DNA of 36,462 nt from Patescibacteria group bacterium (GTDB lineage Bacteria > Patescibacteriota > Patescibacteriia > SG8-24). The position numbers were made by a program, and so were the translations under genes. The notes below the pieces were generated by a model. The model was not told the origin of the DNA. It saw nothing but the letters and a program-made list of their open reading frames with translations, and ran no database searches. The stretch is from contig JAHJAU010000070.1 in assembly GCA_018813785.1 (NCBI GenBank), forward strand, positions 1 through 36,462. Direction: 5' to 3'. The number at the start of each line of letters is the position of its first letter. Position 1 is the stretch's first letter. This document shows positions 17,326 through 29,522 of the stretch, in pieces.

Positions 17326-17383
17326 TTTAACTCGCTTTGAATCTATCTCGGCCTAACCGATTTGGATTATCGATGGGCGGAGG

Positions 17384-17452
17384 GTAGCTGCAGAGTTTAT
17401 CTCTGCCCATCCGATTAAAATAATGATAGGCGGAGACAAGCTCCGCAGCTAC
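17384..17452. repeat. Palindromic MITE/REP-like element, copy 1
   Basis: GTAGCTGCAGAG...CTCCGCAGCTAC ends with internal TCTGCCCATCCGAT; related to 19941-20066. Confidence 0.75.
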
Positions 17453-19940: not shown

Positions 19941-20066
19941 TAGTGACTGCAGAGTTTACCCTGTCGCTCGCGAGCGACAGGGTTTATCTCTGCCCAGCCG
20001 ATCTAATAACGATGGATGGAGGCAAGCCACGTCGCTCGCGAGTGGCGTGGCAAACTCCGCAGCTAC
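19941..20066. repeat. Palindromic MITE/REP-like element, copy 2, with inserted palindromes
   Basis: CTGCAGAGTTT...TCTCTGCCCAGCCGAT...CTCCGCAGCTAC plus a perfect 24-bp palindrome CCCTGTCGCTCGCGAGCGACAGGG (19959-19982) and an imperfect one at 20027-20050. Confidence 0.75.
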
Positions 20067-23172: not shown

Positions 23173-25536
23173 CTACCACAGACCGCCGGCTTGTCCCTGA
23201 AGGTACAGCGTGGATATTTCCGGCGAAATGGTACCAGCCGCTTCGCCAGCAATAAATTTGTCGTACAACCCCCTGACGCCACCCTGGTGATCACGCTTGG
23301 TGTCCAATAGTTGATCCAGATGCCAAAGGTTTCCGACCAGAAAATCTTTGGTCTTGTTGAACATCCGACCACCGTTGTGTTGCAGATCGAAAGCGTGATC
23401 CACGAACACCGTGGCTGTAACCTTGCCTTCGAGCCACGACAGGGCGGCCGCGCAGATATCCGCCCACTTGATTCCACCAAACGACGTACTCCATTTCAAA
23501 TGGCGGAAGGCATTTTCTGCCCGCTGCAGAAAAATTATCTGTTGCTCGAGCGGCAGTAACTCCAATTGGTCAGCAACAGACCTCTGCGCTTCGATTCGAT
23601 CAACGCCTTCGTCAATCACCCCATACTTTTGTAGTTCAGCATGGACCAACTCTCGATCTAAGATCAGAGGGTTGCTATAGGCACTGCTTCGAACGTGACG
23701 CAACTCTCCGGCTGCTGCCAAGACGATATAAGTGGCCATCAACTCAGCGGCCTCCTGATGTTCTTGATGCTGGAGCTTTTGGACTGCTCTCGAAAGCTCG
23801 GCTGTGGCATTGAGACTACTACTGGCCGCAGCCATGGCTTCGATCAGGTAGAAGCTCCTCGCCAACTGCACCACGTTAATACTCTCGCCTCGTCGCTCGA
23901 GGGCGATTCGTGGGGCGTGAGCCCTTTTGTCAATCTCCGGCTGATGGATCCTCTTGTACCACCGCAGGAAAATTTTAATTTCTCTACGGTGGATGCCGAA
24001 CTCCATGGGCAGCTCACCCTGAAGCACCACACCACTCGTGCCGTCAACTGAAACCCACTGAAGGGGCGACAGCTTCAAGCATAAGTCCGCCTGAACACCC
24101 ACTACCGCCGGTTTGTTCAGACTCCGAGCCACCACCGCGGCATGCGATGTCGCGCCGCCGACTTCGGTGACGATAGCATCAGCCGCCAGCATCCCTGGTA
24201 GATCATTGGGTGAAGTCTCTGTCCGAAACAGCACCACCGAACAACCAGCTCCCTTCAATTGACGAGCTTGCTCCGAGGTAAGGGCCGGCCGGCCGGTCAC
24301 TGCTCCAGGCGAAGCCGGAATACCGCGAGCCAGAAAACGATTGGGGTCAGCCACAGCCTGAGCCAGCTCATTAGTCCGAAAGACTGACCGATCCAACTGT
24401 GCTAGCTGAGCTGTAGTCATCGCCCTTCGCTCAAGCGCTTGCTCCTTGGTGAAACGCTTTTCCCAAACCATCTGCACGGCATGAGAAACGGCCGCCACCG
24501 GGGTGCGCTTGGCCAGTCGAACCTGGAGAATGAACAGTCGGCCAGATTCGATCGTGAACTCTACATCCACGACGTCGTCAAAGTGCTGTTCGAGCAGTAT
24601 ACAGATCTGACTCAGCTCCTGATAAACCCCGGGATTCCAACTTTCGAGTTCAGCGATCGGTCGCGGTGTCTTAACACCAGCCACCACATCTTCGCCTTGA
24701 GCGTTTGGCAGCCACTCACCATAGAGCTCGCGCTCGCCGGTGGCGACATTGCGAGAAAAAACAACTCCAGTTCCGGAATCGTCTCCTCGATTACCGAACA
24801 CCATGGCTTGAATGTTAGCGGCGGTTCCGAGCCAACTGGGAATGTTGTTGGCTCGGCGATAAGCCCGGGCACGCTCTGACTCCCAACTGCGAAACACAGC
24901 ACGGCTGGCCATCGTTAACTGAGTCCAGACGTCGTCTTCCATGGAACCGGCGCGACGCTGAATCAGTTGCCGACAGTTGCGGCAGAACTTCTTCAGAGCT
25001 CTGACATGGAACGACTCACGATCGTGATCGCACCCGTTCTTCTGCCACAACTTATCAAACTCACTGGCTGCGATCCCATGAACCACGGTACCGTAACTGA
25101 CCAGAAATCGCCGATAGCAATCCCAAGCGAACCGTTCGTCTCCGGTTTCCCTGGCCAGCGCCAGAACTGTGTCCGGATTAAGTCCGAGATTCAGGATTGT
25201 ATCCATCATCCCGGGCATGGAGTGCTCGGCGCCGGACCTGACCGACACCAGCAGCGGCTTGACCAAATGACCAAAGCCACGACCAGTCGACTGCTCCAAT
25301 CCTTCCATTTCTCGAACGATCTGACCAAACTGCCGACGCGGCAGATGGCCATGCTGTAGTGACGACCGCCCCACGCTTGTGGTGACGGTGAAACCGGGCG
25401 GCATGGGTACACCAAGGTGCACCAGTTCCGCCAAGGAGAAACCCTTGCCGCCACGCTTGGCGGCTGACAGATGGGCGGAACTTTCGAATCCGCAAACCAC
25501 CTGACGATTCCGCCTGCGAGACGCTTTCTTTCCCAT
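23173..25536 (-). CDS. Pyruvate,phosphate dikinase-like protein: ATP-binding + phosphohistidine domains fused to an unrecognised C-terminal domain
   Basis: GGKGFSLAELVHLGVPMPPGFTVTT, PLLVSVRSGAEHSMPGMMDTILNLGLN, VEFTIESGRLFILQVR, GGATSHAAVVARSLNKPAVVG. The C-terminal ~270 aa show no PEP-utilising TIM-barrel motifs. Confidence 0.9.
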   Translation of the reverse strand: MGKKASRRRNRQVVCGFESSAHLSAAKRGGKGFSLAELVHLGVPMPPGFTVTTSVGRSSLQHGHLPRRQFGQIVREMEGLEQSTGRGFGHLVKPLLVSVRSGAEHSMPGMMDTILNLGLNPDTVLALARETGDERFAWDCYRRFLVSYGTVVHGIAASEFDKLWQKNGCDHDRESFHVRALKKFCRNCRQLIQRRAGSMEDDVWTQLTMASRAVFRSWESERARAYRRANNIPSWLGTAANIQAMVFGNRGDDSGTGVVFSRNVATGERELYGEWLPNAQGEDVVAGVKTPRPIAELESWNPGVYQELSQICILLEQHFDDVVDVEFTIESGRLFILQVRLAKRTPVAAVSHAVQMVWEKRFTKEQALERRAMTTAQLAQLDRSVFRTNELAQAVADPNRFLARGIPASPGAVTGRPALTSEQARQLKGAGCSVVLFRTETSPNDLPGMLAADAIVTEVGGATSHAAVVARSLNKPAVVGVQADLCLKLSPLQWVSVDGTSGVVLQGELPMEFGIHRREIKIFLRWYKRIHQPEIDKRAHAPRIALERRGESINVVQLARSFYLIEAMAAASSSLNATAELSRAVQKLQHQEHQEAAELMATYIVLAAAGELRHVRSSAYSNPLILDRELVHAELQKYGVIDEGVDRIEAQRSVADQLELLPLEQQIIFLQRAENAFRHLKWSTSFGGIKWADICAAALSWLEGKVTATVFVDHAFDLQHNGGRMFNKTKDFLVGNLWHLDQLLDTKRDHQGGVRGLYDKFIAGEAAGTISPEISTLYLQGQAGGLW

Positions 25537-25602
25537 TTCCCTCTCCTGGGTTTGACCCGGTGCACCGGGCGACTTTGTTTTGTTGTTGATTGTAAATATC
25601 TA

Positions 25603-25620
25603 AAACGCCTTAAGGCGTTT
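25603..25620. promoter_or_regulatory. 18-bp perfect palindrome in the PPDK-like gene leader
   Basis: AAACGCCTTAAGGCGTTT between the promoter (25697-25725) and start codon (25536). Confidence 0.6.
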
Positions 25621-25696
25621 GATTGGAATAGCCAAAAAGTTACAGCAATTTTCTGACTGACCCAACCAAGAGCCTAAGCCATTTTTAAAACTCTAA

Positions 25697-25725
25697 AATA
25701 TAGCAAATCTCTGCGTAATTGTCAA
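25697..25725 (-). promoter_or_regulatory. Sigma70-like promoter for the PPDK-like gene
   Basis: Minus strand TTGACA-17 nt-TATATT. Confidence 0.75.
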
Positions 25726-25742
25726 GATTATTAAACAAGTGA

Positions 25743-25767
25743 CCCAGCTCCAATTTCTGGAGCTGGG
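25743..25767 (-). terminator. Terminator hairpin ending the candidate ncRNA
   Basis: CCCAGCTCCA-5 nt-TGGAGCTGGG 10-bp perfect stem; the following tract TCACTTGTTT is only weakly U-rich. Confidence 0.6.
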
Positions 25768-27160
25768 CCGTAAGGTAACAAAAAAATTTTCTTAGTGGCC
25801 ATTTGTCATGCGCCCCCAAGGCCGTGCGGAGGCACTTCCGTTTTTCAGGTCAGCGCCATGACTGCGCTTTTTCGATCGAATGTAGTAGTTCGACATCGAA
25901 CGTCGATCTAGACCTGAAGCATCATCAGCCTGAACCAAGGCCGAGAATTGACATCCTCGTGGAAGTAGCGAGGCTGTCCAAGCGGCAAGAATCGCTTCCG
26001 TGGTGGTTTGGTGACCACCTTTTCCACTTTCCTATTTCTTGAAGGGCTTGTCGCAACGGGCTTTACCCATCGCCTAGGTTCATCCTTCAGCTAAAACCTG
26101 ACCAATCATAGACTCATCCACTCGTCTTGTATAACTTTTCAAAAGCGTTATACATCAGCGTGAATAAGCCAAGCACTCTTCTCCGCCCTTTATTAATTAT
26201 TTGCATTGAAAAGTGTTACTGATCAGGCCCTAACCCCGTCTGTCCGGGGTGCGGAGACGCCACTTCCGCTTCAGTTGTCCCATCAATCCAGTGATGGGCG
26301 TGAAATCGGTCGCTGGTAGAATGACAGACTCCAACCAACTCCACTGTTTCAGTGGCAGACACAGTACACCGCCATCAAACAGCTTCCCTCTTTTTAACGG
26401 TGCCTTCACCGAGGGAGATGAAAACACCGCATAAACTCACCTCACCAACGGTTTTATGAATTCCGCTGGCAAAATGATCGGACGGGGCCTATTCGGTCTC
26501 TATCATTCAGGCGATTTCCAACCGCCGGGTTGAAAAAACCTTTCGGGTACCCTTAGCCGCCAGGTGTCTAGCCGTCGGCTAACTCGATTCAGCTTTCAGT
26601 TGATGATTCAGTTCGGTTGCGAGCCGTACCAGATCGTCAATCTCGGTTCTTGATACCTGCCCGATTTAGGCATCAAGCAATAAACCGCAATGACCTCTGA
26701 ATCTTAAAGTCACCGTCTCTTTATCGACCCGCCGGTCGCGTAGGGAAAGAGACTACCCAGCTATTTGATGAAAGTTCTCTGATCGTCCTACCCAGGATGA
26801 TCCAACTCCCACCTTGATGGCCGATCCGGACACGCCGCTGCCCGACCTAATCACTCCTCGGTCTGCTTACCAAAAAGAAAATAGGTTTTAATTTGCTCGT
26901 TTACTCCTTGAGCTCAGTGTGCAGCGGGGATTTCACCCGCACTCCCTCCACGCCTGGTTTATAAAAATTTTTTACCAGGTTGAACGGATTCAGCTTTGGT
27001 CTGAACACACAAACGAGCGGACCTTTTTAAATAAGTGCTTAGAGCAGCGCACCTATCGAGCTGACTTTTTGTTAACGGGCTCCGTCAGCGATTGAGCCCT
27101 AGTAAACGCACATCCTAATCCTCCCTCTTTATCTGAACCTGCGACGACGTTGTCGCAGAG
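25743..27160 (-). ncRNA. Candidate giant structured noncoding RNA (~1.4 kb)
   Basis: No credible ORF. Promoter TTGACT-17-TATTTT at 27193-27165; 5' hairpin CTGCGAC/GTCGCAG right after the predicted +1; many local hairpins; long-range perfect helices 26895-26902/27011-27018, 26605-26611/26697-26703 and 25844-25851/25911-25918, each enclosing further hairpins; 3' terminator hairpin 25743-25767. Confidence 0.75.
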
Positions 27161-27164
27161 AAAA

Positions 27165-27193
27165 AAAATAACATAAAAAGTCGGATTAGTCAA
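27165..27193 (-). promoter_or_regulatory. Sigma70-like promoter of the candidate ncRNA
   Basis: Minus strand TTGACT-17 nt-TATTTT. Confidence 0.7.
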
Positions 27194-27208
27194 GATTGTG
27201 TTAGGTAC

Positions 27209-28321
27209 CCCCAATTCAATACATAACCGAACACTTCAGTGTAACATTGCCGATTAGGCATAACTGTAGTAATCATGTCAAAAAAGACGCATTTGAAGGA
27301 GTTCGAGAGGGAGAAGATCGAGTACTGGCTGAGGCTGGGGTTCGGCAACAACGAGATCGCCAGGAAGCTGGCTCGCAGCGGATCGTCAGTGTCCGACGAG
27401 ATCCGCCGCAACAGCAACCCAGACGGTAAGTATACGGCGGCGGATGCCCAGCGCCGAGCCGACCAGAGACGAGAGCGAAAGAAGGGTCGGAAGCTCGAAA
27501 GGGACGCCGTGCTACACGACTACGTAGTCTCCCTGCTCCGCGGCGACGGCATGCTACAGGGCTGGGCGCCGGACGCGATCGCCGGGCGGCTGAAGCACTA
27601 CCCAGAGCTGGTGCCGGAGGAGTTGCGGGGGAAGACCGTCTCGCACGAGGCGATATACCAGTACATATACGAAGGCGAGGGAAAGTGGGAGGCGCTGTAC
27701 CACCACCTGCCCAGGAAGCGCAGCCGCAGGAGGATCAAAGAGGGCAGGAAAACGCGTCAGCAGAGCAAAATACCGAACAGGGTGAGCATCCGGCTACGAC
27801 CGGCCGAAGTCAATGAGAGGAAGACGTTCGGCGACTGGGAAAGCGACACCTTCGAGGGTACGGGATCGGCGTGCGGATCTGTGCAGGTGGAGCGCAAGTC
27901 GAGGAAGATTCACCTGCACAGGACGGCGGACAAGACCAAGGAGGAGACCGAACGAGCCATCAGGCAGACCATCGAGTCATATCCGGAATACCTGCGGGGC
28001 GAGGCGTTCCGGACGATGACCCTCGACAACGGTGGCGAGGGCGCGAACCACGGGAAATTGAGGAGGGAATACGGCATCGACACCTACTTCTGCGACCCGT
28101 ACTGCTCGTGGCAGAAGGGCTCGGTGGAGAACGCCATCGGCCTCGTGCGGCTGAGGTTCATTCCAAAGAAAACAAATCTCTCGACCCTTTCGGATCGAGA
28201 GTTCATGCTCATGGAGGACTTCCTGAATGACATGCCCGGAAAGTCTCTCGGGCACCTTACGCCGAATGAGGTCGCGGCGCAATATTTGTGAGAGGTGTTC
28301 GGTTATTAGCTTGAATTTGGG
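27209..28321 (+). mobile_element. IS30-family insertion sequence
   Basis: Imperfect terminal inverted repeats CCCCAATTCAATACATAACCGAACACTTC and (reverse complement of right end) CCCAAATTCAAGCTAATAACCGAACACCTC flank the transposase ORF. Exact ends and target duplication not resolved. Confidence 0.85.
27275..28291 (+). CDS. IS30-family transposase
   Basis: MSKKTHLKEFEREKIEYWLRLGFGNNEIARKLARSGSSVSDEIRRN HTH; FGDWESDTFEG, TLDNGGEGANH, YFCDPYCSWQKGSVENAIGLVRLRFIPKKT. Confidence 0.96.
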   Translation: MSKKTHLKEFEREKIEYWLRLGFGNNEIARKLARSGSSVSDEIRRNSNPDGKYTAADAQRRADQRRERKKGRKLERDAVLHDYVVSLLRGDGMLQGWAPDAIAGRLKHYPELVPEELRGKTVSHEAIYQYIYEGEGKWEALYHHLPRKRSRRRIKEGRKTRQQSKIPNRVSIRLRPAEVNERKTFGDWESDTFEGTGSACGSVQVERKSRKIHLHRTADKTKEETERAIRQTIESYPEYLRGEAFRTMTLDNGGEGANHGKLRREYGIDTYFCDPYCSWQKGSVENAIGLVRLRFIPKKTNLSTLSDREFMLMEDFLNDMPGKSLGHLTPNEVAAQYL

Positions 28322-28457
28322 AATGTCAAAGGTAAGCTAAAAACTGACACCCCCCCAACCAGGATTTATATGTTATGGTATATGAGTTGACTTAAATAAA
28401 GACTCAAATCGTTGCTAACGATCGACGAGTCCGCTCTTTAAAAGATCGAGGTGTGTT

Positions 28458-28904
28458 TTGATTACAGAACTCAAAGAGTTGCTCGATGAGGTGGCGGCTA
28501 TTCCAGATGATCAAATTGAGGAGCCGAGCTTGAAGATTGCTCCAGAACATTTTGTGGTCGGTCGAATCGACGATCTAAAACTACGGCGCATTTTTACCGC
28601 CTATACACGTCGAGTTCGCGAACTGAGTCAATTGCATCAAGCGGTTCGTGGACCAATGTTAGTAGCGCGAAATATCCCTACTACAATCCAGACTAAAATG
28701 ATCGAATTACAGGACGAGCTGGATCTACTACGACAAATTTTTTTCTATGCTCTTAGCAAACGATTTGGTTTGTTCGGGCGACCGTTTATTCATGTTCACG
28801 TTGGCTGGCTGGTCAGTTGGTCGAATCGATCAACATCAACTCCGGCCTGCTCCGGTTCAGAAACGACGTTCGACAATGATAACAATGATCAAAACACCAA
28901 CTAA
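28458..28904 (+). CDS. Orphan small protein, tandem family member 1
   Basis: TTG start after GAGGTGTG; ELKELLDEVAAIP, DLKLRRIFTAYTRRVREL, ELDLLRQIFFYALSKRF, VHVGWLVSWS align with 29046-29522. Confidence 0.75.
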   Translation: MITELKELLDEVAAIPDDQIEEPSLKIAPEHFVVGRIDDLKLRRIFTAYTRRVRELSQLHQAVRGPMLVARNIPTTIQTKMIELQDELDLLRQIFFYALSKRFGLFGRPFIHVHVGWLVSWSNRSTSTPACSGSETTFDNDNNDQNTN

Positions 28905-29045: not shown

Positions 29046-29522
29046 ATGGAGGTTCACTTGCCCAAACACAGAGATTTTGCCGAACTCAAAGACCTGCTGG
29101 CTGAGGTGCAAAAAATTCCCCTCAGTGAGGTGGTCGATATACCGTACGACCTTGAGGAGGGTCAGCATGCTTTCGCCACAGTGAAACACGCTGATCTCAA
29201 GCGACTCTACACGGCACAAGTAGAACGCATACAACGAGTGAAAAAATTACGCGTTCAATTACCGGAAAAACTGGCGGGTGATCCGAAGATCGCTGAAACA
29301 CTGATCGATCAAATAGAGAACGCGGCGCAAGAGGTCGAACTTCTGAAGCATCTATTCTTCTACTTGTTGCTGAAACGCTACGCACCACCCTCATATGAAA
29401 CGATCGGTGTCGCCCGTGGCTGGCAAATCTACTGGGAAGGGCCCAGGGCAAACGAAGAACTGTTCAGCCTGATCACCTTCTCTAACCTTGATAATCCGGA
29501 CGGCACAGAAGACCCGGATTAA
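29046..29522 (+). CDS. Orphan small protein, tandem family member 2
   Basis: ELKDLLAEVQKIP, DLKRLYTAQVERIQRV, EVELLKHLFFYLLLKRY, VARGWQIYWE. Confidence 0.8.
   Translation: MEVHLPKHRDFAELKDLLAEVQKIPLSEVVDIPYDLEEGQHAFATVKHADLKRLYTAQVERIQRVKKLRVQLPEKLAGDPKIAETLIDQIENAAQEVELLKHLFFYLLLKRYAPPSYETIGVARGWQIYWEGPRANEELFSLITFSNLDNPDGTEDPD

Follow-up and report, generated by a model that had tools for sequence, protein, structure and literature searches.

The minus-strand region at 25743-27163 of the window (the whole 36,462-nt stretch of DNA analysed here) has an even chance of being the gene of an orphan, lineage-specific, free-standing structured noncoding RNA of ~1.4 kb, which may be a novel giant RNA. 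It is tentatively proposed, with a probability somewhat below even, that it stands for a new class of ~1.4-kb free-standing structured RNA, longer than GOLLD, unrelated to known RNAs and confined to a single lineage of bacteria with small genomes (probably candidate phyla). The orphan-RNA reading is favored by the ORF-free length, the GC content of 0.496, the strand-biased folding excess, the G-U-rich helices, the promoter-like site and the absence of repeats. Against it stand the lack of a homologue, the similar control windows, the missing GNRA tetraloops and the weak terminator. To our knowledge, there are very few bacterial noncoding RNAs above 600 nt, besides rRNA and introns. The large bacterial noncoding RNAs with a solved structure form RNA cages or oligomers. 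If the orphan-RNA reading is true, the question arises what a reduced cell with a streamlined 1.2-Mb genome gains from a 1.4-kb orphan RNA, and it would suggest that lineage-specific giant RNAs escape comparative methods.

Table 1. Coordinates of the candidate, its predicted structural elements and neighboring features in the window
Feature	Position	Strand	Basis or remark
Candidate ~1.4-kb structured noncoding RNA	25743-27163	-	no ORF, no Rfam match, fold z
Promoter-like site TTGACT-17-TATTTT, extended -10 TG	27165-27193	-	expected start ~27158
5' hairpin CTGCGAC/GTCGCAG at expected transcript start	27139-27158	-	pair probability at least 0.97
5' domain, closing helix CGTTTAC/GTAAACG, span 211	26898-27108	-	predicted fold
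16-pair hairpin in 5' half, 4 G-U	26845-26886	-	predicted fold
Central domain	25924-26825	-	predicted; composite helix of ~28 pairs, 26825-26794 with 25957-25924, span ~900
Nested long helix, 16 pairs, span 408	26368-26775	-	predicted fold
15-pair hairpin, 5 G-U	26437-26477	-	predicted fold
14-pair hairpin, 4 G-U	26397-26430	-	predicted fold
141-nt subdomain, 15-pair closing helix, two inner arms	26092-26232	-	predicted fold; covered by model R1
3' hairpin, 13 pairs, candidate transcript end, without proper T-run	25741-25769	-	predicted fold
Promoter-like site of PPDK-like gene, strong, TTGACA-17-TATATT	25697-25725	-	11/12
PPDK-like gene, 787 aa, downstream in GC-rich block	23173-25536	-	
IS30-family insertion element	27206-28322	+	transposase 27275-28291; ends approximate
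Palindromic repeat copies	17372-17452 and 19978-20027		also in many sampled contigs, e.g. L220, L232, L227, L224

The region does not code for protein in any recognizable way. Stop codons occur at chance frequency in all six frames of 25743-27163 (longest open run: 87 codons), the small frames have a codon-usage score of about zero or below, and 25566-27274 holds no ORF of at least 80 aa. Under translation table 25 (TGA = glycine) 25743-27163 is still without a long frame, which rules out a genetic-code problem as the cause of the missing ORF. The statement of the earlier note that there is no credible ORF for ~1.4 kb is thereby borne out. No pseudogene trace or tRNA was found in 25743-27163 either.

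In the 508 kb (43%) of the genome examined, no other ORF-free stretch is as long as this one; of the remaining long ones, those inspected hold tRNA clusters, apparent small genes or a broken gene. The candidate is also among the most GC-rich intergenic regions of this portion (GC 0.496 versus an intergenic mean of 0.395 +/- 0.058), and a high GC content of an intergenic region is the signature that the GC-IGR pipeline uses for structured RNAs (PMC11109978). The candidate is single-copy in the genome and without internal repeats, and it does not contain the genome's palindromic repeat. The latter is a REP/BIME-like family of ~80 nt, of the GTAGCTGCAGAG...CTCCGCAGCTAC type, which is scattered through the genome. 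In the relative G007, the intergenic regions are likewise repeat-rich.

With ordinary shuffles, the minus-strand RNA of the candidate (-534 kcal/mol) reaches a z of -7.3, and the plus strand -4.7. The candidate is thus a long noncoding region that folds beyond its composition, but 3 of 24 other 1420-nt windows of the genome reach a z of about -7 to -9, so that fold strength alone is not decisive. After these control windows had shown the ordinary-shuffle z to be insufficient, local-composition shuffles (71-nt blocks) and rRNA yardsticks were added. The candidate then obtains a z of -10.4 on the minus strand versus -4.0 on the plus strand, and the former is the strongest value among the sequences tested, namely the SSU rRNA from a genome of the same order (-6.3), the PPDK coding region (-5.6) and a palindromic-repeat window (-8.7). 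The minus-strand RNA therefore folds at least as strongly as the ribosomal RNA of a relative. Its per-nucleotide folding excess and its share of well-defined pairs are within the range for the rRNA of relatives; some shuffled copies are equally well defined in pairing.

The fold model is a prediction from a single sequence. Its helices of 14-16 pairs that are rich in G-U pairs occur on the minus strand only, and it contains no GNRA tetraloop versus nine in the SSU rRNA. All hairpins that had been listed in the earlier note are present, including the 5' hairpin and those at 26715-26753, 27077-27099 (GGGCTC/GAGCCC), 26279-26298 (CCCATCA/TGATGGG), 26341-26355 (CCACTG/CAGTGG), 26233-26250 (ACCCCG/CGGGGT), 26129-26153 (GTATAAC/GTTATAC), 26953-26979 (CCTGGT/ACCAGG) and 25852-25868 (AGCGC/GCGCT), while GGTGGT/ACCACC is found at 26002-26019. 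The earlier note took the density of helices to suggest a selected fold. The candidate has 17 perfect stems of at least 6 pairs, versus 6.1 +/- 2.6 in shuffles, none of 200 of which reached 17; however, other windows of the genome hold 4-16 of them.

A promoter and a terminator of its own had also been proposed. The promoter-like site shows 9 of 12 consensus matches with a TG ahead of the second hexamer, a quality that chance alone would produce ~1.7 times in the 2.2 kb covered by the scan, and its expected start coincides approximately with the beginning of the first hairpin. The 3' hairpin is followed by the tail ACTTGTTTAA, which is no true T-run, whereas terminators elsewhere in the window (e.g. 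~17300, ~28920 and ~30840) have clear T-runs. Because it lacks the T-run of the genome's usual terminators, the label of terminator is only partly supported. The separate promoter that the earlier note gave to the PPDK-like gene corresponds to a strong promoter-like site just past the 3' hairpin, which is better than that of the candidate.

Relatives of the candidate were searched for at several levels. BLAST against 193 relatives, 384 genomes of the same class and 384 of the same phylum, as well as against phages and plasmids, returned either the window itself or chance matches. The same-class matches (384 genomes, E 5) are ~20-40 nt long and are considered chance, as all 15 examined overlap ORFs of at least 70 codons; the single match in the phylum (28 nt, in G632) falls inside an ORF. 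In a 17-mer scan of contigs, none of 45 stretches could be extended, and eight pattern scans of IMG/VR gave isolated 18-19-mers and nothing else. Three single-sequence covariance models of candidate subdomains match the window alone. An ORF-free region of 1497 nt in G007 (L174:5600-7096) was rejected as a counterpart, as its composition differs and no model matches it. As a control, the same BLAST finds the RNase P RNA in members of the family (E 6e-85) and of the order (3e-31). A conserved RNA should therefore have been detected, and the candidate is restricted to its lineage among the collections searched. The homologue search that the earlier note had called for thus came back empty, and without a homologue in any of these collections there is no covariation.

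The candidate does not belong to a known RNA class as far as the models can tell. Rfam gives no match for either of the two strands, even when the E threshold is set at 5 and the filters are permissive, and this includes the covariance models of GOLLD, ROOL, OLE, group I and II introns, RNase P, tmRNA and rRNA. ARAGORN finds no tmRNA and no tRNA in the window. In control searches with Rfam, RNase P RNA and tRNAs are recovered both in the relatives and in the candidate's own genome, and rRNA is recovered in the relatives. The comparison with GOLLD, ROOL and OLE made in the earlier note thus stands for kind (size and intricacy), not for membership. That the candidate would be longer than the first two was correct: it is ~1.6 times the length of GOLLD, and ROOL is less than half as long as the candidate. 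Like the candidate as proposed here, ROOL is a large structured noncoding RNA for which a protein partner is not known, but ROOL is linked to phages or prophages and its model does not match the candidate. OLE is large, free-standing and chromosomal, as the candidate would be. OLE, however, is ~610 nt long, conserved across Gram-positive extremophiles and adjoins the gene of its partner protein, whereas the candidate shows neither conservation nor a model match. GOLLD is a large (often >800 nt), intricate and free-standing RNA whose function is unknown (PMC12286853). The candidate would share these traits, but it has no recognizable conserved 3' region and lies outside a phage or tRNA-island setting, as the window is without tRNA and the phage collection holds nothing similar. 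Compared with SSU and LSU rRNA, folding excess and definedness are similar, but there is no rRNA model match and GNRA tetraloops are not predicted. As a separate observation, the 23S rRNA genes of relatives (L171:4308-7492 and L152:5143-8262) measure about 3.12-3.19 kb versus 2.93 kb for the model, which suggests insertions.

A working model can be proposed from these elements. Transcription would proceed leftward from the promoter-like site (27193-27165), and the transcript would open with a protective 5' hairpin. It would then form a 5' domain, followed by a large central domain that is shut by the long-range helix of ~28 pairs, and would end at the strong hairpin (25743-25767), just ahead of the site from which the PPDK-like gene would be transcribed separately. 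The RNA may act in trans as a folded scaffold, either as an RNA-only or as an RNA-protein particle. This role is a best guess by analogy with GOLLD, ROOL and OLE (PMC12286853).

The main rival, which is unlikely but carries real weight, is that of a non-functional or loosely constrained spacer between two insertions (the PPDK block and IS30), with a fortuitous fold and with any transcript being noise. This would agree with the lack of conservation in any relative, where RNase P RNA is readily found, with the few other windows of comparable fold z, with a promoter score at chance level and with the apparently acquired DNA on the flanks. However, the length and GC content are outliers among the intergenic regions of the genome, and a local-shuffle z that tops all sequences tested, with strand bias, is not what such a spacer would predict. 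It is improbable that the region is what remains of a mobile element or phage region in decay, or a series of palindromes acting at the DNA level, rather than an RNA gene. The region does adjoin an IS30 element with further copies in the genome, and palindromic repeat families occur in the genome and in relatives, but the candidate is free of internal repeats and genomic copies, falls outside the palindromic family, matches no phage or plasmid and has a strand-biased folding excess.

The region could also serve the PPDK-like gene as a giant 5' leader or as a cis-regulatory RNA, which is a shade less probable still. The candidate lies on the same strand and ends ~200 nt ahead of that gene, and the hairpin without a good T-run would permit read-through; yet the gene has a strong promoter-like site of its own past the hairpin and is located in a GC-rich block whose composition differs. 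A decayed protein gene is very improbable. Broken genes are present in the genome, such as the long GC-rich ORF-free region at L245:15128-16177, which looks like a gene broken by a TAG stop. In the candidate, by contrast, stops are as frequent as chance predicts, whichever of the six frames is read. The check for a decayed coding gene that the earlier note had advised found no counterpart of the read-through frames among the NCBIfam profiles (all six frames) or in Pfam (minus frames), and a tblastn search of the relatives gave none either. Least probable of all, the region could be a known type of RNA (GOLLD, ROOL, OLE, intron or rRNA fragment) that has diverged very strongly: size class and intricacy are comparable, but Rfam remains blank at E 5 while detecting the RNase P RNA of the same genome.

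The GC-rich block at 21.0-25.5 kb, which holds the PPDK-like gene, looks like acquired DNA. The encoded protein matches only the first ~557 of the 865 positions of the PPDK profile and is unmatched after residue ~561, so that it either lacks the C-terminal PEP/pyruvate domain or carries another part in its place. Upstream of the candidate, the left end of the IS30 element lies ~15 bp from the promoter-like site. Two other copies of this element are located at contig ends (L241 and L242), and the contig join across the copy in the window is therefore worth checking. Further along, the window encodes two adjacent ORFan proteins (28458-28904 and 29046-29522) that match no family and are distant paralogues of each other (25% identity, E 5e-14).
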